Of a stretch of DNA of 64,000 bases, positions 8,532-26,515 are shown piece by piece; position 1 is the stretch's first letter; each line of letters opens with the position of its first letter. The translations under genes were made by a program, and so were the position numbers. The notes beneath the pieces were generated by a model. The model ran no database searches, was not told the DNA's origin, and worked only from the letters and a program-made list of their open reading frames with translations. The DNA is from a bacterium. Its GTDB lineage: Bacteria; Electryoneota; RPQS01. The stretch is from the NCBI GenBank assembly GCA_023382385.1, contig JAHDVH010000002.1:758219-822218 (forward strand), in the 5' to 3' direction.

Positions 8532-9014
8532 TCAATTCGCGCAGGGAGCGGCCCACAACAGGTTCCAGTGATCCTCAACGTCGCGCACAACTTTTCTTAG
8601 CTGTGTCGGGTCCATCGGCTTCAGAAAGTAACCGGTGACACCGTGCGAAATTGTGTACGCCAGATCGGATTCTTGCAGATTGTCGGTCAGAACGACCACC
8701 GGAATCGTCATCAGTTTCGGGTCAGTGCGAATCTCATGCAGCACCTCGAACCCTTGCTGTCCGTTCATGTTGATGTCCAGCAAAATCAATCCCGGTTTGG
8801 TCATGCCATGATCGAGGTCGAAAGGTCCGAAAGAGACGGTGTGCCGCAGATAATGAAGCGCTTCCAAGTGCGTTCTGGCCACCACCATGCGATTGCGGAG
8901 TCGCGTCTCCTGTATCGCACCTTCCACCATCTCGATGGCTTCATCCCGATCCTCAATCAGCAAGATGTCCATTGGCACCCGCTCATCGGAGACGTTCCCG
9001 CCGTTCATATTCAT
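8532..9014 (-). CDS. Stand-alone response regulator receiver (Rcp1-like)
   Basis: 160 residues, a single receiver domain with no output domain. Acidic residues ED follow strand 1 (DILLIED), the phospho-acceptor is Asp80 in LILLDINMNG, the switch Thr is in VVVLTDN, and the conserved Lys is in GYFLKPMDP. The long strand-to-helix insert (TVSFGPFDLDHGMTKPG) is typical of Rcp1-like receivers paired with phytochrome-type or hybrid kinases. ATG 9014 is chosen with a weak AGAG upstream; a TTG at 9020 or an internal ATG at residue 15 are alternatives. No kinase is adjacent. Confidence 0.85.
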   Translation of the reverse strand: MNMNGGNVSDERVPMDILLIEDRDEAIEMVEGAIQETRLRNRMVVARTHLEALHYLRHTVSFGPFDLDHGMTKPGLILLDINMNGQQGFEVLHEIRTDPKLMTIPVVVLTDNLQESDLAYTISHGVTGYFLKPMDPTQLRKVVRDVEDHWNLLWAAPCAN

Positions 9015-9084
9015 CGTCAATTCTCTTTTACATCATCGTAACTCGATTCCCCTTATGGCAAAGCTTGGACCTGACCAAAATTAA

Positions 9085-14969: not shown

Positions 14970-15971
14970 TCATTCCCTTCCCGTAGCGATTTCCGTTGTT
15001 CCGATTTTTTCGAGAATCTGGACGGCGACCTTGAGCGCATTCAAGCCGTCCTCGCCCGTGACGGGCGGTTCGGTGTTGTGATGAATCGCATCGAAGAAGG
15101 CGCGCTGTTCCATGTCAATTGCGTTACCTTCCGGCGCGCTGGGTGCACCCATCAGAATCTTGCGCTTGATGGCACCCTTTTCAATCTCGCCAAGCATGAG
15201 CGTTCCGGCAACGTGCGCTTCGTCGGCATGCGCGAGGCGGAACTGCTGCACTTCACCCTTGGCGAAATCGAGCGAGATGTAACTATCCTCGGAAAACATT
15301 CTGAGCTTACGCATGGGATTCGCGCTGATGCGGGAAGCGGTGACGTTGGCAACGCCGCCGGAGGGAAAAGTCAGACGCGCATTGGCGATGTCCGCCGCTT
15401 CACTGATGACGGCCACGCCGGACGCGTCAATCTGCGAGGGGAATTCCCCCATCAGCTTCAGAATCAAATCCAGATCGTGAATCATCAAATCGAGCACGAC
15501 GGCCACGTCGGTTCCACGCGGCTTGAACTGTGCGAGACGGTGAGCCTCGATGAACTTCGGGTGCGGATACTCGCTGCCGAGCGCGCGGAAAGCGCGATTG
15601 AAACGCTCGACATGGCCGACCTGCAGCTTGAGGTTTTTCGCGCGCGCGAGTGAGACGAGTTCTTCGCCTTCGGCGACGGTCGTAGTCACGGGTTTTTCGA
15701 GAAAGACATGTTTGCCCGCCGCGAGCGCGGCTTTGGCGACGGAATGATGCGACGAAGTCGCCGAGACAACGAGCACGGCGTCGCTTTGAACGAAGACCTG
15801 TTCCAAGGAAGGAGCGGCCAATCCGCCGAACTGTTCGGCGATGGATTGCGACTTCTCGAAGTCCACATCGAAGACGGTCGTCCAGACGACGTCCTGATTC
15901 TGCGAGAGCAGGCGGGCGTGGATGGTTCCCAGATAGCCTGCACCGACGATACCGACACGCAATTTAGTCAC
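14970..15971 (-). CDS. Gfo/Idh/MocA-family oxidoreductase (possible GnnA-like)
   Basis: 333 residues. The NAD(P)-binding GIVGAGYLGTIHAR is at residues 7-20 and the family motif FLEKPVTTT follows; VLDLMIHDLDLIL gives the C-terminal catalytic His. Members of this family are commonly found beside lpx genes. One such enzyme, GnnA, oxidises UDP-GlcNAc at C3 so that GnnB can aminate it, giving amide-only lipid A. No GnnB-like aminotransferase is in this window, so the reaction is inferred from position only. The start is GTG 15971, overlapping the stop of the small membrane protein gene by 8 bases. Confidence 0.8.
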   Translation of the reverse strand: MTKLRVGIVGAGYLGTIHARLLSQNQDVVWTTVFDVDFEKSQSIAEQFGGLAAPSLEQVFVQSDAVLVVSATSSHHSVAKAALAAGKHVFLEKPVTTTVAEGEELVSLARAKNLKLQVGHVERFNRAFRALGSEYPHPKFIEAHRLAQFKPRGTDVAVVLDLMIHDLDLILKLMGEFPSQIDASGVAVISEAADIANARLTFPSGGVANVTASRISANPMRKLRMFSEDSYISLDFAKGEVQQFRLAHADEAHVAGTLMLGEIEKGAIKRKILMGAPSAPEGNAIDMEQRAFFDAIHHNTEPPVTGEDGLNALKVAVQILEKIGTTEIATGRE

Positions 15972-17848: not shown

Positions 17849-18226
17849 TCAGGCGTTGACCATGTAGGTGCTTTCCAGAATTTTCAGGGTGAGAGCCTGC
17901 TGACTGAAGGGCTTGGTGAGATAGTTCTGCGCGCCGGCTGCGAGGGCCTCGGAAACATAGTTCATATCGGCTTCCGAAGTCAGCATCATGACGACGATAT
18001 GCCTAGTCGCAGGATCACTCTTAATCACTTTCAGGACGTCCAGCCCGCTCATTCCGGGCATATTCCAGTCAAGGACTACCAGCGAAATATCTTGAGATTG
18101 CTCGGCCAGCACGGCCAGCGCCGTAATGCCGTCGGGAGCTTCAAGCACAAAGTGACCAAGCTCTTCACAGCTTCGCCGGACGATTCTGCGGATAGTGGTG
18201 GAGTCATCAACGGACAGTATGGTCAT
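17849..18226 (-). CDS. CheY-like response regulator receiver
   Basis: 125 residues, a single receiver domain. DD follows strand 1 (ILSVDDS), the phospho-acceptor is Asp53 in VVLDWNMPGMSG, the switch Thr is in MMLTSEAD and the Lys in NYLTKPFS. The DWNMPGMSG form is common in chemotaxis-type CheY. ATG 18226 has GAGG 6 bases upstream; the preceding in-frame codons do not resemble the family. It follows the CheX-like gene at 18444 on the same strand across 217 bases, suggesting a functional pair. Confidence 0.88.
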   Translation of the reverse strand: MTILSVDDSTTIRRIVRRSCEELGHFVLEAPDGITALAVLAEQSQDISLVVLDWNMPGMSGLDVLKVIKSDPATRHIVVMMLTSEADMNYVSEALAAGAQNYLTKPFSQQALTLKILESTYMVNA

Positions 18227-18443
18227 GTCATCCTCTGGCGAATAAAGTCTAAAGTATGAATTGAGAGTTGCGCGCACTTAGTCGGAATCCACAAGAGTGT
18301 GAGCAAATAGCAGACCAGCGGAGCAGAAATTAGCAGTCGAAAACGGGAAGTGGTGGATACAAAACTACGCAGCGAAGCAATCTGCAGTTTCAAGAACAAG
18401 GTGGTGGCGGGATGACAACGCGCACGGGGTGCGGTGTTGAGGA

Positions 18444-19298
18444 TCAGGCGGCCTTGCGACGGAGGCAGATGAGCAGCGAGAAGATCTCACTGGCCGCACG
18501 AAACTCAAAGACAAAGACCGGTTCCCCTCGCAGCTGCGCGACGATGTGCGGGCCTCCGGCGAAGACCTGCGGCGGGGAAATCCGCAGCTGTTCGCGCAGG
18601 TCGCTGACGTTGGCTTTGGCCGCATGCGCAATTGATTCGATTAACTCGCCGATGCTTGCGCTGATTTCGATGTCTGTCACATATTCACCGCGCGCGGACA
18701 TGGTGGAGCAGGCGATTTTCGCGGCAAGATTACGCGGAAACGAGACGGTGATGAAGCCTTCGGCGCCGCCGCTGAACGCAACGGTTCCTGAGACGTGTCC
18801 GGTGGTCATGGCCTCGGTGGAGAGCTGCATGTTCGACCGTTCGCATTCCAAACCGGTCAGCTTCTCGAGCGTGTGCAGCGTGTTACCCAGCAGTGAATTG
18901 ACATAATCCACACTGACAGCCTTACGCGCCTTGCTGTTGCTTAATCCGCCATACTTGGCGAGGGTATCGATGATTTCATTCGGACGCAGCGGTGTGAGCA
19001 GGACGGCTTTCACGCAGGTTCCGACAGCCTGCTGCGCAGCGAGCTCGCCGATTGGATTGGCCACAACGATCACGGGACAGAGCTTCTCGTCTCTTTGTGA
19101 AACAAGCTGTTTCAGTCGCTGGCAGCCCTGGTCGCCTTTGTCCGGCCAGAAGAAGAAGGCAAGAGTGAGATTCTTCATCACAGGCGCGGCGCGCTCCACA
19201 TCCAAGCGCTCAATCTGCACCTCATAGTCCGCGAGGATTCGCGAGACCATGTGGTCCAGCAGCGTTGGAAACCCGATTAACCCGATTGTGCCGTCCAT
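18444..19298 (-). CDS. Pseudo-receiver/CheX-like two-domain protein
   Basis: 284 residues. Residues 1-~118 have the strand-helix rhythm of a receiver (TIGLIGFPTLLDHMVSRIL; VIVVANP; AVLLTPLRPNEIIDTL) but no phospho-acceptor Asp at the end of strand 3 (LAFFFWPDKG). Residues ~130-284 match CheX/CheC-type phosphatase folds: DYVNSLLGNTLHTLEKLTG and SASIGELIESIAHAAKANV. In CheX the active helix is ExxN; here Glu218 is kept but the Asn position is Glu221. It may bind a CheY-like partner without hydrolysing its phosphate. ATG 19298 has GGGGAG 8 bases upstream. Confidence 0.65.
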   Translation of the reverse strand: MDGTIGLIGFPTLLDHMVSRILADYEVQIERLDVERAAPVMKNLTLAFFFWPDKGDQGCQRLKQLVSQRDEKLCPVIVVANPIGELAAQQAVGTCVKAVLLTPLRPNEIIDTLAKYGGLSNSKARKAVSVDYVNSLLGNTLHTLEKLTGLECERSNMQLSTEAMTTGHVSGTVAFSGGAEGFITVSFPRNLAAKIACSTMSARGEYVTDIEISASIGELIESIAHAAKANVSDLREQLRISPPQVFAGGPHIVAQLRGEPVFVFEFRAASEIFSLLICLRRKAA

Positions 19299-19538
19299 CA
19301 ATTGTTCTCCCCGACCTGTGAACGTGGATGCAGACTGACTAACCCAATCTTAAAGCGCCGAACGAATGATGTGCAATTCAACTTGCGAGGTCAAACGATG
19401 CTGACACAGGAACGCTTTGCCCGCACGGCAATGCGTGACTTAGAAAGCAGAATAGGTTTGAACAAGTAAAGACAATTTTCCGAATTTCAAGGACCTGCGA
19501 GGCGAAATGAATTGCAAAGCACAGACCGTTTTACAAAA

Positions 19539-19570
19539 AAATTCCCGAGGGTTCGCGCCATCGGGAATTT
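19539..19570 (-). terminator. Terminator of the lpoB-metB-like operon
   Basis: AAATTCCCGA pairs with TCGGGAATTT around a 12-base loop, and the minus strand continues with a run of T residues. It lies 18 bases past the stop at 19589. The remainder of 19299-19588 shows no gene. Confidence 0.85.
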
Positions 19571-19588
19571 TCTTTCGCAGGCAAAGGG

Positions 19589-20734
19589 CTATCTAAGCTT
19601 TTGAAATCCATTGGCTAAGTCCTGCCTTAAATCATCCACATCTTCGAGTCCAACGGAGAGCCGAATCAGGCCGTCGGTGACGCCCAGTTTTTCCCTCAGG
19701 TCGCGCGGAATGGTCGCATGGGTCATGATAGCAGGATGATCGCAAAGCGACTCGACGCCACCGAGCGACTCGGCCAAGGTGAAGAGTTTAAGACCGGACA
19801 CAAACTTGCGAGCCGCCTCGAGTCCGCCTTTAAGTTCGAAGCTGATCATACCTGCGAAGCCGGTCATTTGCCGCATCGCGAGATCCTGTTGCGGATGTGA
19901 TTTCAGTCCGGGATAACGGACCCAACTGATGTGCGGGGAAGTTTCGAGATCTTTGGCGAGCATCGCGGCATTGGCCTGATGCCGCTCCATCCGCACCGCG
20001 AGGGTCTTGATGCCGCGCAGCGTCAGGAAACAATCCATCGGACCCGGCACGGCACCGCAGGCGTTCTGGATGTACTTCAACTGTTGATAGAGTTCCTGAT
20101 CGTTCAGCACAATTGAACCCATAACGACGTCGCTGTGGCCATTGAGGTATTTCGTCACGCTGTGCATGACGAGATCCGCGCCAAGCGCGAGAGGTTTCTG
20201 AAAATATGGAGTGGCAAAGGTGTTGTCGACAGCGACTTTGACGCCCTTTGCACGTGCTATCTTCACGACGGCTTGGATGTCCACGAGCTTCAAGAGCGGA
20301 TTGGTCGGTGTCTCCAGCCAAATCCATTTCGTTTTTGGCGTGATGCTCTGCTCGAGCAGGTCGAGGTTAGTCAGATCGATGAAGTCTGAGGTAATCCCCT
20401 GCTTCTCGCGCACATATTTGAAGATGCGGAAGGTGCCGCCGTAGACGTCGTCGCCGGCAATTACATGATCTCCGCTGGAAAGCGTCGCAATCAAGCAATC
20501 GATTGCGCCCATTCCGCTGGAAAAGCACAATCCATATTGCCCGCCTTCGAGCGCGGCGATGGATTCCTGCAGAGCAACGCGGGTCGGATTGTCCGTGCGT
20601 GAATACTCGTAGCCGAGGTGCTTCCCGAGTTCCGGCTGCGCGTAGGTGGACGTTTGAAAAATCGGCGTCATGATGGCGCCAGTCGTCGGGTCGGGATGCA
20701 CTCCCGCATGAATGCAAAGTGTGGAGAATTTCAT
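19589..20734 (-). CDS. Cystathionine gamma-synthase/lyase family PLP enzyme
   Basis: 381 residues, the standard length for the Cys/Met metabolism PLP family. The PLP lysine is Lys195 in HSVTKYLNGHSD, and YSRTDNPTR, FSSGMGAID and ETPTNPLLK are conserved cofactor and substrate residues. It could be cystathionine gamma-synthase (MetB), cystathionine gamma- or beta-lyase, or O-acetylhomoserine sulfhydrylase; sequence alone does not decide. The start ATG overlaps the TGA of the preceding membrane protein gene (ATGA), so the two are coupled, an unexpected pairing for a cytosolic enzyme. Confidence 0.9.
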   Translation of the reverse strand: MKFSTLCIHAGVHPDPTTGAIMTPIFQTSTYAQPELGKHLGYEYSRTDNPTRVALQESIAALEGGQYGLCFSSGMGAIDCLIATLSSGDHVIAGDDVYGGTFRIFKYVREKQGITSDFIDLTNLDLLEQSITPKTKWIWLETPTNPLLKLVDIQAVVKIARAKGVKVAVDNTFATPYFQKPLALGADLVMHSVTKYLNGHSDVVMGSIVLNDQELYQQLKYIQNACGAVPGPMDCFLTLRGIKTLAVRMERHQANAAMLAKDLETSPHISWVRYPGLKSHPQQDLAMRQMTGFAGMISFELKGGLEAARKFVSGLKLFTLAESLGGVESLCDHPAIMTHATIPRDLREKLGVTDGLIRLSVGLEDVDDLRQDLANGFQKLR

Positions 20735-21423
20735 GAATGACTGTTGACTGTGAATGCGGCGGGTTCGCCGCTGGGATCTTTCAGGAAGACATAGTTTGTG
20801 ATCGCAAAGAGCAGCAGCGAGGCTCCGGCCATTTCACACAGCTCCTCCGCAATGTGCAGCGGATGGCACAACGTGTTTTCGAAGAGGATCAACGCACCCG
20901 GCCGGCTCGAGTCGGCCAACTCGAATCCAATCGTTCCCATCCAGAGAAGCAACCCCGCAGTACCGCTCCAGAAACTCCAACCGGACACTGCCCTGAAGCG
21001 CGCGATGAGCATCGCCAAAATAGCCGCCCCCGCCGCAATCGGCAGCGAGAAGACATAGACCCAATCCGAATAACCGTAGTCTTCCGAAATCAGATCTTTG
21101 TAGATCGCCGCGCCGAAGGACTCGTGCAGCATGGCGGTTTCGTCCACAGAGAGAAACAGGAATCCGGCGGCGAGCAGCAGCCAAGACTTCGAGTGATCGC
21201 GCCGAAAGGCAAGATAGGTTGTGACGGCCAGAGCCAATAATTGCGAACTGGTGAACCAGACGGGAATCGTGTTTTCACCGTTCAGATTCACCGCACGGTT
21301 GATGGTCACTGAGTCCGTCGGCCAAACATTTAGAGCTGCAAACACCAACTCAACTGCGAGCAAAGCGACCAGTGCTTGCGTCAGAAGCCGTGTCTTGTCC
21401 GGCTGCCCGCCTACTTCCAGCAC
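20731..21423 (-). CDS. Polytopic membrane protein of unknown function
   Basis: 230 residues with about six hydrophobic segments. Conserved-looking polar residues sit at helix ends: FLSVDETAMLHESFG and HPLHIAEELCEMAG. The clustered Asp, Glu and His within or near the membrane suggest a metal site, as in membrane hydrolases, but I do not recognise the family. GTG 21423 is used; the gene overlaps the stop of the COG3014-like lipoprotein gene by 13 bases and its own stop overlaps the PLP enzyme start. Confidence 0.65.
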   Translation of the reverse strand: MLEVGGQPDKTRLLTQALVALLAVELVFAALNVWPTDSVTINRAVNLNGENTIPVWFTSSQLLALAVTTYLAFRRDHSKSWLLLAAGFLFLSVDETAMLHESFGAAIYKDLISEDYGYSDWVYVFSLPIAAGAAILAMLIARFRAVSGWSFWSGTAGLLLWMGTIGFELADSSRPGALILFENTLCHPLHIAEELCEMAGASLLLFAITNYVFLKDPSGEPAAFTVNSHS

Positions 21424-22841
21424 CTCGCACGAAGCACCGTCAACTCGCCCGCACGAACTTTGACGGTGGGCAAATCGTAGCGCATTACCGTTTCGCCGCT
21501 TGAGCCTTCATACATCACCCGCAAGCTGTGTTCGCCCGGCGGCAATTGAAAGTCGGCGACAAAAATTCTATCCGGAAGAGTTTCCCACGAACGTGTGTCG
21601 GCAGCTTCGGTGGCCGCGCCGAGCAGATTCACTCCCATCCCGAGAATGGTTCCCAATGTTTTGCTGTCCTTATTGCCGGCATCTTCGGCGGCTTTCGACG
21701 CGGCATACTTGACGATGGCACGCGTGATAGCACGAACGGTAATTGCGGGCATCCGGTCGGAGAGGTCCTGCATCAGAATCCGTCCCACTGGTGCGGCAAA
21801 CTCCGCCAGCCGGTCGAGCTTATCACCCCGCACGGAGACGCGCTGCACGTCCGTACCGCGATAGTCGCTCGGATAGTAAGGCAGCGCGACACGCAGAAAG
21901 TAATCGAGCTGCGCTTCTTCATAGCGATAATCGTGGCCGCGCAGATACACTTCCTGAGCGTAGCGTTCCCGCTCTTCATCGCTGCCAAATCTGCGCTGGT
22001 CGTACTTCATAATCGGGAACATGATGTTCGTCTCGAGGATCTGCGGCGCGATGCCCGCTTCGCATAAGACGACCACGCGTCCCCAATTCGGATCATAGTC
22101 CTTGTCCACGTCGGGGCAACGTTCCAACAGCTCCGCTTCCTGCTCGCTTGCTCCCACTTTCTTCAGAGAAGCATAGGTCGCGCGGCACAAATAGCCCGGC
22201 TCGTCCATGCCATAAAATGGATAGAGCGTCTGCGCGCGTTTGTAGGCAATCCACGCGTCGTTATATTGACGGTAGGACTCATACATCACTCCCGCAAACC
22301 ACTGCAGGAACGGGTCGTTGGTGTAGCTGTGTTTGGATTCGCGCGCGTTGACTTCAAGATAGCTTGCGATGCGCCGTCCCTCGACAGTCGCGGAGTTCGG
22401 ATCACCCTTCATCAGGTAAGCCAGAGCCTGATAGTAGTGGAGCATCGCCTTGTCGTAGACGGTGCCCTGATAGGCGCGCACGCGGTCGGAGGTGGTCAGC
22501 GCGGCGGCTTCACGGGACAGGCTCTTGGTCAGGCGCTCTTCGGCCAGCCGGTCGGCCTCTTTAAGAGCTTTCAGCGCGTCGTCGTATTTGCCCGCTTCCA
22601 ATGCGAGCAGACCAAGATTCAGCAGCTCGTCCACACGTTCGGTGTTGGGTTTGACGCCCTTCCGATAGGCTTCGAGCGCCTTTTCCGTGGAGGTCGCGCG
22701 CAACTCCGTCCGCACCTGCTCCATCAACAGTGTCCGCTTTCCCGCGCACCCGAAGAGCAGCAGGGCGAGCAAAATGACCATCAGAAATGTATAACCGCGG
22801 CGGCAGGAAACCTTACCTGCGCCGCATACCGGAGAGTTCAT
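21411..22841 (-). CDS. Lipoprotein, COG3014-like, with TPR-type repeats
   Basis: 476 residues. A signal peptide ends in the lipobox LLLFGC, so the mature protein should be lipidated on Cys32. The N-terminal third has helical repeat units (LLNLGLLALEAGKYDDALKA; AMLHYYQALAYLMKGD) like tetratricopeptide repeats. The rest matches my memory of COG3014 lipoproteins, which are usually found beside LpoB-like proteins. The neighbour 8 bases upstream is exactly such a protein. A role in envelope or peptidoglycan synthesis control is inferred. Confidence 0.7.
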   Translation of the reverse strand: MNSPVCGAGKVSCRRGYTFLMVILLALLLFGCAGKRTLLMEQVRTELRATSTEKALEAYRKGVKPNTERVDELLNLGLLALEAGKYDDALKALKEADRLAEERLTKSLSREAAALTTSDRVRAYQGTVYDKAMLHYYQALAYLMKGDPNSATVEGRRIASYLEVNARESKHSYTNDPFLQWFAGVMYESYRQYNDAWIAYKRAQTLYPFYGMDEPGYLCRATYASLKKVGASEQEAELLERCPDVDKDYDPNWGRVVVLCEAGIAPQILETNIMFPIMKYDQRRFGSDEERERYAQEVYLRGHDYRYEEAQLDYFLRVALPYYPSDYRGTDVQRVSVRGDKLDRLAEFAAPVGRILMQDLSDRMPAITVRAITRAIVKYAASKAAEDAGNKDSKTLGTILGMGVNLLGAATEAADTRSWETLPDRIFVADFQLPPGEHSLRVMYEGSSGETVMRYDLPTVKVRAGELTVLRARCWK

Positions 22842-24865: not shown

Positions 24866-26515
24866 ATGAGCCCTGATCCCAAGACCACTGCGCAGCAGCA
24901 AACCGAGACTCCTGACGGTCAGCCGAACGGGGGTTCACCTGCTCCGGACCTTGGGTCAACGAACAGTGCCACGCGCGCGCGGGGCTTAGCCGGCCTGCTG
25001 CAGAATTTCATTCACCGCACCAAGTCCGCTGAAGCGCCCGCCCCGAACGAAGAACAGCCTCCTGAACTGCTGGATCTGCTGCTGGAAGGTCCGGACGGTT
25101 TGGTGGTGGTGCACTGCAAGCGCGGCGAGATCATTGAAGCATCGAAGCGGTTCTGCGAGTGGATGGGCCGTTCTCGCGACGAGTTATTGGATAAGCCGTT
25201 GCTGCTGTTCTTCCCGGAAAGCGAACGCAAGATTGTGCGCACGCTGTATGAAGACGCCGGTGTGGGCGGAGTGCATGTAGTGGAGTTGACTCCGGCCGAC
25301 CCGTCGGCCAATCCGCGTCTGATTGAGTTTACGACTCGCCGCTCCGTCTCGGGGAAGGGCGAGTTTGCTTTGTTAGTGGGCCGCGACGTCGGAGAGCGAG
25401 CGATATCCGAGCGCTATCTGCGCATTGAACGTGACCGGTTGAATACTTTTATTCGGGCGATGCGCGACGGGCTGGTGCTGATGGATGTCAGCGGAGATGT
25501 CCGCTACGCGAATCCCACGATGGAAACACTGTTCGAGCCATACGAATTGGCGGTCGTCTGTCACCGTTGGCTGAAAGAATTCTCGAAGGAAGACCGCACG
25601 GACTTGCAGGGACTGACTTCGGCTTACGGCGGGAAGACTCTCAAGCTGGAAGCGGGCGACGGGCGCATGTTTCTGGTGACGCGCAGCTTCCTGTTCGAGA
25701 CGGGCCATTCGAGTCAGGTGATGCTGATGTGCAAGGACATCACAGAGCAATCACTGATAGAAAAACAGAACCACATGCTCGAGCTGGAGCTGACGCGGGA
25801 ATCCAAACTTGCTGAGTTCGGCATGCTCGTCGCGGGAATCGCGCACAACCTGAACGGCCCATTGACGGGCATTCTGGGCATTTGTGATTTGCTCAAGCTT
25901 AAGGATCTGGCCACACGCGAAATCGAACAGGTGCGCAAACAGGCTCTGATCATGCGCGATCTGATTGCCAATCTGATGCACAAGTCGCGCAACGAGCGGG
26001 AAACCGAACCGCGCGAACTCGACGTGCGGGACATCATCGAAACGGAACTGCGTTTTCTTGAGGGCAACTTGTTCTTCAAGCACAATATCGAAACCAAGCT
26101 GCTGATTGCCGACGAGCTGCCGACCATTTTCGGAGTCTACATTGACCTCTCGCAGGTTATCGGCAACCTGTTGCGCAATGCGATTGACGCGATGCACGAC
26201 ACACCCAAGAAGGTGTTGACGGTCAAGGCCTATGTGCGTGAGCGGCAATTGGTGCTGGAGGTGGCGGACACCGGAATGGGCATGACCGAGGAGGTCAAGG
26301 CGCGCATCTTCGAGCCGTTCTTCACGACGAAACCCAAGAAGCAGGACGCACCGGAAGGGACTCCGGTCGGGACAGGTCTTGGATTGTCGTCGTCTCGCGG
26401 GATTCTGTCGCGCTATGGTGCGGCACTGGACGTCTTCTCGACACCGGGCGACGGCAGCACGTTTGTATTGCGCTTCCCCATCGGGAGAAAACCCGACCTG
26501 CTGCCCAGAAGTTAG
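24866..26515 (+). CDS. PAS-domain sensor histidine kinase
   Basis: 549 residues, soluble. A disordered Pro/Gly/Ser-rich N-terminus (1-60) is followed by two PAS domains (~65-170 and ~185-295), a DHp helix pair and an HATPase domain. The phospho-acceptor His327 is in GIAHNLNGPLTGI. The catalytic domain has NLLRNAIDAM (N box), DTGMGM (G1), FEPFFTTK (F box) and GTGLGLSSSRGIL (G2). It lacks transmembrane segments, so it should sense a cytoplasmic signal. No response regulator is adjacent; the single receivers at 8532 and 17849 are possible but unproven partners. Confidence 0.88.
   Translation: MSPDPKTTAQQQTETPDGQPNGGSPAPDLGSTNSATRARGLAGLLQNFIHRTKSAEAPAPNEEQPPELLDLLLEGPDGLVVVHCKRGEIIEASKRFCEWMGRSRDELLDKPLLLFFPESERKIVRTLYEDAGVGGVHVVELTPADPSANPRLIEFTTRRSVSGKGEFALLVGRDVGERAISERYLRIERDRLNTFIRAMRDGLVLMDVSGDVRYANPTMETLFEPYELAVVCHRWLKEFSKEDRTDLQGLTSAYGGKTLKLEAGDGRMFLVTRSFLFETGHSSQVMLMCKDITEQSLIEKQNHMLELELTRESKLAEFGMLVAGIAHNLNGPLTGILGICDLLKLKDLATREIEQVRKQALIMRDLIANLMHKSRNERETEPRELDVRDIIETELRFLEGNLFFKHNIETKLLIADELPTIFGVYIDLSQVIGNLLRNAIDAMHDTPKKVLTVKAYVRERQLVLEVADTGMGMTEEVKARIFEPFFTTKPKKQDAPEGTPVGTGLGLSSSRGILSRYGAALDVFSTPGDGSTFVLRFPIGRKPDLLPRS

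Follow-up and report, generated by a model that had tools for sequence, protein, structure and literature searches.

A CheX-like protein with Glu in place of the catalytic Asn, encoded beside an intact CheY in a flagellated genome in which no CheA was found

Introduction

What becomes of a CheY-P phosphatase fold whose catalytic Asn has been replaced, when the gene still adjoins that of an intact CheY? This question is raised by a two-gene locus in the window, the whole stretch of 64,000 nucleotides analysed here, where a first-pass annotation had described a CheY-like receiver paired with a larger protein and had suggested that the latter is a phosphate sensor or sink rather than a phosphatase. 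In CheC, CheX and FliY, as excerpts of one study describe, an inserted Asn orients the water molecule that attacks the phosphoaspartate and an acidic residue forms a salt bridge with the receiver Lys (PMC3035606), and part of another states that CheX needs both motif residues (PMC3510030). Flagellated bacteria that lack a chemosensory pathway are very rare and their control of direction is unclear, according to sections of a report that names Aquifex aeolicus and 14 of 69 flagellated Actinobacteria as having no chemosensory system (PMC10746217). Campylobacterota, in the relevant part of a further paper, possess a CheX with a conserved motif that is unlinked to cheA (PMC9321776).

Genomes and alignments

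The window's own genome is referred to as G000, and G001 is a genome of the same genus, which comprises these two genomes in all comparisons. Eleven family genomes (G000 and ten others) were searched for CheA and MCPs. Conservation of the catalytic Asn was counted in 31 relatives, being the 29 non-window matches of one genome search and two further sequences from another. A scan of a genome collection with an alignment returned 35 loci, all of which were read; as the scan was partly built on the pattern GE..N, these loci were left out of the Asn count. The proteins of 22 of them, together with the window protein, make up the 23-sequence alignment used for AlphaFold2, and a scan of the collection with the window protein as the single query gave no match. 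Named records with relatives of the fusion include metagenome assemblies of candidate division KSB1 and Calditrichaeota.

A pseudo-receiver fused to a CheX fold

Both genes are present where the first-pass annotation had placed them, on the minus strand and separated by a 217-bp gap, with the CheY gene downstream of the gene for the larger protein, written here as REC*-CheX. The features of the locus are:

14970..15971, minus strand: Gfo/Idh/MocA oxidoreductase gene, syntenic marker on one side (Pfam; gene order)
17849..18226, minus strand: cheY, stand-alone receiver of 125 aa (PF00072, E=1.4e-25)
18444..19298, minus strand: REC*-CheX fusion of 284 aa, ATG at 19298 and stop at 18444 (Pfam; AlphaFold2 model)
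18456..18914, minus strand: C-terminal CheX domain, residues 129-281 (PF13690; Foldseek; VIA-align)
18636..18647, minus strand: E218-L-I-E221, the ExxN motif with Glu for Asn (codons; comparison with 31 relatives)
18945..19298, minus strand: N-terminal pseudo-receiver, residues 1-118 (hhalign against the CheY alignment; receiver fold)
19299..19588, no strand: 290-bp gap separating cheX from metB, at the flank that cheY occupies in seven sister genomes
19589..20734, minus strand: Cys/Met-metabolism PLP enzyme gene ('metB'), syntenic marker on the other side (PF01053; gene order)

A Pfam search with the 284-aa protein identified CheX (PF13690) in its C-terminal part (E=5.4e-13, 49.3 bits against a cut-off of 27) and returned no match for the N-terminal part; the protein scored 46.8 bits with NF041094, the CheX_Thtogales equivalog, which is below the curated 280. 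The AlphaFold2 model (mean pLDDT 87.9; pTM 0.61, the relative placement of the domains being unsettled) consists of a (beta-alpha)5 receiver fold at residues 1-118 followed by a CheX fold at 129-281. Structural comparison bears out the CheX assignment: the top Foldseek match of this part is 3hm4 (E 9.1e-15), and VIA-align over approximately residues 128-281 gave Z 21.4 with 3hm4 (rmsd 1.9, 147 aligned) and Z 19.4 with 3hzh_B, the B. burgdorferi CheX of a CheX-CheY complex. Approximately residues 1-120 align with receivers at Z up to 14.9. The model also matches FliM middle domains in Foldseek.

The N-terminal domain had been described as a receiver fold lacking the phospho-acceptor Asp, and profile-profile alignment with the CheY family (hhalign, prob 95%, E 2.5e-8) agrees. 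As read from that alignment, F50 occupies the phospho-Asp column, G9-F10 the positions of the Asp pair, A80 that of the Thr and T102 that of the Lys; the acceptor Asp, Asp pair and Lys that mark a phosphorylatable receiver are all missing, although the fold matches. A hidden receiver Asp was also ruled out by the alignment, Asp53 lying three columns further on. Phe stands in the acceptor column in all eight fused relatives of the family too. On this comparison the degenerate receiver is a family trait and, being family-wide, would explain nothing special in the window; the new trait is the loss of the Asn.

The stand-alone receiver has a complete active-site set (D7 D8, D53, T83 and K105), invariant in an alignment of eight CheYs, and is 62-71% identical to the CheY of seven sister genomes. 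Its likeliest start is the ATG at 18226, with 'agagga' visible by eye just 5' of it, the listed GTG at 18277 being less likely. CheY PRK10610 is its top-scoring NCBIfam model (90.2 bits, below the cut-off of 189), and PADLOC gave no more than a weak receiver-type match for this protein. Another stand-alone receiver of 162 aa lies at 8532-9020 of the window (minus strand; PF00072, 58 bits, the match being spread over 127 residues).

Loss of the catalytic Asn

Reading of the codons confirmed the reported motif of the CheX-like domain as E218-L-I-E221, with E218 at 18647-18645 and E221, encoded by GAA, at 18638-18636. Glu and Asn are both kept in 31 of 31 aligned relatives, so that the window is the sole exception and its ExxN motif is broken; likewise, five solved CheX-family chains, among the alignments listed, have Glu at the position of E218 and Asn at that of E221. 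An error of sequence or frame behind the change was ruled out, since GAA is two changes away from any Asn codon, the flanks are in frame and the divergence runs along the whole protein. Judged by its motif, the window's CheX has probably lost catalysis.

Locus order among relatives

Fused REC*-CheX proteins occur in eight of the ten other family genomes, the exceptions being G006 and G009, and in seven of the eight cheY lies directly upstream of cheX, the reverse of the window's order. On the side of the window's cheX that faces away from the present cheY, tblastn with nine CheYs across 18401-21500 detected no cheY remnant, all hits being at E=1.7 or weaker. The PLP-enzyme and Gfo/Idh genes that enclose the window's locus also enclose, with intervening genes, the loci of five of the eight, namely G001, G003, G007, G008 and G010; the order is metB ... 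cheY-cheX ... gfo in G003, G007, G008 and G010, and metB-cheX-flippase-gfo in G001. In G002 and G005 the pair is found inside a cluster with MCP, CheA, CheR and CheD genes, joined in G005 by CheW and HDOD, and on the strength of these clusters it plausibly belongs to a chemotaxis module. In G071, which is from outside the phylum, cheY comes after the fusion gene, the order seen in the window, and the 13-kb contig that holds the two also encodes CheA. Horizontal replacement of cheX is not favoured, because G001 shares the synteny metB-cheX-flippase-gfo and the two genus members group in the tree, albeit with moderate support (81/82).

The cheX of G001 (L178, G001:C22, 4683-5555) keeps ExxN, and no cheY ortholog was found in that genome: the two frames recovered by a genome search with a limit of E <= 1e-12 measure 216 and 233 aa and are too long and too weak to qualify, and tblastn of nine CheYs against L178 produced at best a 23-residue piece (E 0.001) far from cheX. 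With neither a cheY ortholog nor CheA nor MCP found, the REC*-CheX of G001 is apparently a phosphatase without its usual substrate.

Chemotaxis and flagellar gene content

That no chemotaxis genes are nearby, as had been claimed, holds for CheA and MCPs well beyond the window. Searches of the complete G000 assembly (2.9 Mb, 98.27% complete) and of G001 found neither a CheA dimerisation domain (H-kinase_dim) nor an MCP signalling domain; the one CheW match in G000 is approximately 610 kb from the CheY/CheX pair, and the sole Hpt match is a 127-aa frame too short for CheA. Across the family CheA was found in 7 of 11 genomes and MCPs in 5 of 11. Neither was found in G004 (56% complete) and G009, and CheA was found without MCPs in G006 and G007; the cases of G006, G007 and G009 show absence calls in fragmented assemblies to be imperfect. 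There are 29 receiver matches across G000. At L033:7282-9143 (G000:C2:165281-167142), a CheW (PF01584) is encoded together with a protein that appears HDOD-like by eye and with a stand-alone receiver bearing a CheB-like 'DLEMPRMSG' stretch; CheA is not among them, and this group is a possible second remnant of a chemotaxis system.

Flagellar genes are clustered in G000, with profile matches to FliM, a FliN-type C-terminus, FlgI, FlhA (FHIPEP), FliP, an FlgE/F/G rod protein, FliF, FliG and FliL. Seven of ten proteins scanned in the flagellar cluster have flagellar-named domains, and the remaining three, a sigma-70 factor, a T3SS-type ATPase and an SRP54-type GTPase, are interspersed among the flagellar genes. 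FliM and FliN-type genes are present in both G000 and G001. The N-terminal EIDALL of FliM, which we take to be the CheY-binding peptide, occurs in eight of the nine family FliMs read, including that of G000, the exception being G001 (EIDSLL); its retention would be weak evidence for the use of CheY, because the peptide is nearly intact in G001, without cheY. The FliN of this family (in G000, L179:15157-16032, G000:C1) has a long N-terminal domain of approximately 200 residues without a Pfam match, at the place where FliY carries its CheC-like domain. As an alternative phosphatase this protein was rejected, since Pfam gave FliMN_C alone and no CheC domain.

A gene for a PAS-HisKA-HATPase kinase lies at 24866-26512 of the window (plus strand), followed by phosphofructokinase and GAPDH genes and with no receiver match directly beside it. 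It was dismissed as a phosphodonor tied to this CheY, since the gene list of G001, where no cheY ortholog was found, shows a gene of similar size in the same order.

Rates of change

The CheX proteins of G000 and G001 share 32% identity, as against 90% for the PLP enzyme, 83% for Gfo and 81% for FliM. Of 49 CheX columns on which all the other members agree, the G000 protein has changed at 17 (35%; other eight members, 0-24%), and of 56 such columns in CheY it has changed at 4 (7%; other seven, 0-10%); the changes in CheX extend into a part of helix 1 of the pseudo-receiver that does not vary elsewhere. The end branch of G000 is the longest of the family in the CheX tree (2.09, compared with 1.18 for G001 and 0.15-1.12 for other family members) and in the CheY tree (0.67 versus 0-0.38).

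Relative-rate tests, all with uncorrected p values, were less uniform. For CheX, comparison of G000 with G001 using six outgroups gave p values of 0.016, 0.27, 0.15, 0.007, 0.004 and 0.12, and on these tests the G000 protein is not clearly faster than its G001 counterpart. With G071 as outgroup, comparison of the G000 CheX with seven non-genus members gave p of 7e-5 to 0.014 in six cases and 0.30 for G002, and one of seven tests was significant for CheY, G000 being faster than G005 (12 versus 3, p 0.035). As the G000 CheY also has the longest branch and one significant test, the contrast in rate between CheX and CheY in G000 is, on these alignments, one of degree.

In a crude drift simulation of 500 replicates, 33 stayed free of stops at 75% identity, 6 at 60% and 2 at 50%. 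Since so few did, the open frame of the real cheX argues for some selection, although the argument is weak if the divergence is mostly recent. The GC3 of cheX is 0.72, within the 0.60-0.75 of its neighbours.

Discussion

The window protein shares fold (Z 19-21), profile and motif Glu with the CheX CheY-P phosphatases (PF13690; Thermotoga maritima 1xko/1squ, Borrelia burgdorferi 3hzh), from which it differs in having Glu for the catalytic Asn, a fused pseudo-receiver and a genome in which no CheA was found. Also close are the sister-genus fusions (L003-L010) and that of G071 (L011), which have the same architecture, the acceptor-less receiver and, in 8 of 9, a CheY neighbour; unlike the window, however, they keep ExxN, and CheA was found in the genomes of six of the eight family fusions and in G071. 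Aquifex aeolicus and the Actinobacteria cited above likewise combine a flagellar gene set with no CheA or chemoreceptors, whereas the window genome retains an intact CheY and an Asn-less CheX. A search of open-licence papers found none on a CheX that lacks the Asn or is fused to a pseudo-receiver, and none on a CheY kept after the loss of CheA. The domains and the pair are of known kinds, and it is the Asn-less CheX with an orphan CheY in a CheA-less flagellated genome that is unreported in the open-licence literature searched.

Our best explanation, which we give about an even chance of being right, is that REC*-CheX is a CheY-P phosphatase orphaned by loss of the kinase, which has kept its fold and motif Glu, lost catalysis and become a non-hydrolysing CheY binder. 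The observations on which it draws are the domain content, the residue losses, the conserved neighbourhood, the searches that found no CheA or MCP, the flagellar genes and the uneven rates. The pair would be all that is left of the chemotaxis module after the lineage had lost kinase and receptors and kept its flagellar genes. The ancestral REC*-CheX would have been a CheY-P phosphatase whose Glu contacted the CheY lysine and whose Asn held the attacking water; after the loss of CheA, rapid shut-off would no longer have been required, and the protein would have diverged fast and exchanged its Asn for Glu. With the lysine-contacting Glu kept, the present protein would most likely bind the retained CheY without hydrolysing its phosphate, so that CheY would be held or shielded by it and not reset, and would itself be driven by another phosphodonor. 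We regard a non-hydrolysing CheY binder as the most economical function because the lysine-contacting Glu is kept and the amide gone. Loss of catalysis, continued CheY binding, action on the motor and an alternative phosphodonor are the parts that we infer. As a counterpoint, the Asn-less state is seen in G000 alone, the sole such genome among those compared. The strongest complication is G001, in which no CheA, MCP or cheY ortholog was found, yet ExxN is kept, so that kinase loss did not by itself remove the Asn.

The main rival, to which we allow a real if minor likelihood, holds that the protein is a functionless relic, a phosphatase merely decaying after the loss of CheA on a path that CheY may follow. 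It would account for rapid divergence that extends over the whole protein, the invariant helix-1 stretch included, and for the exceptional end branch, and it is in keeping with the missing cheY ortholog of the sister species and with other Che remnants in G000 that are merely scattered (the CheW with HDOD-like and receiver genes); it fits poorly, however, with a full-length, stop-free frame of the kind that few drift replicates preserved, a coding G+C like that of the neighbouring genes, a confident CheX fold and the retained motif Glu. Retention of the fold, Glu218 and the adjoining CheY could also be read as the mark of a still-active CheY-P phosphatase, with the water placed by Glu221 or another side chain. 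This is improbable given that the Asn is present in every one of the 31 relatives, that the published CheX mechanism, as set out in excerpts of the two papers, relies on the amide (PMC3035606, PMC3510030), and that a carboxylate at 221 would be expected to face the phosphoryl group.

Quite improbable, too, is a re-targeted regulator that has given up CheY and uses one of its two domains, pseudo-receiver or CheX, to bind the flagellar switch or a different receiver. In its favour, G001 keeps an ExxN cheX where no cheY ortholog was found, which suggests a use without CheY now or until recently; the CheX fold is also that of FliM middle domains, as the Foldseek matches reflect, and the genome has 29 receiver matches. 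There is no direct evidence of another partner, however, and cheY still adjoins cheX in G000. The phosphate sensor or sink of the first-pass annotation derives some appeal from the neighbouring phosphorylatable CheY, and its premise that the protein is not a phosphatase stands, the Asn being missing where all 31 aligned relatives have it. The proposal itself is barely credible, because a sink needs a phospho-accepting Asp, which the N-terminal domain has lost together with other active-site positions, and CheX domains are not, to our knowledge, phosphate carriers themselves.

One could go further and picture, doubtful as this remains, a flagellated bacterium without chemoreceptors or CheA that steers through an orphan CheY, with small phosphodonors or histidine kinases of the ordinary kind supplying the phosphate, and a former phosphatase, now non-hydrolysing, that, with Glu221 at the site of the water, holds CheY, favours one of its states and so sets motor bias slowly. 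The lineage looks like one more flagellated case without a chemosensory pathway, and it shows an intermediate stage, in which kinase and receptors were not found, CheY is intact and the phosphatase motif is broken. With it one could test whether CheY can stay in use in the absence of CheA, and it supplies a naturally occurring exchange of a catalytic residue within a phosphatase family. CheX domains that follow 110-120 or so residues resembling degenerate receivers, by eye, are present in other phyla as well, namely at three loci of Cloacimonadota (L103:4830-5666, L115:4005-4838 and L127:4524-5354) and one of Desulfobacteraceae (L114:4626-5480).
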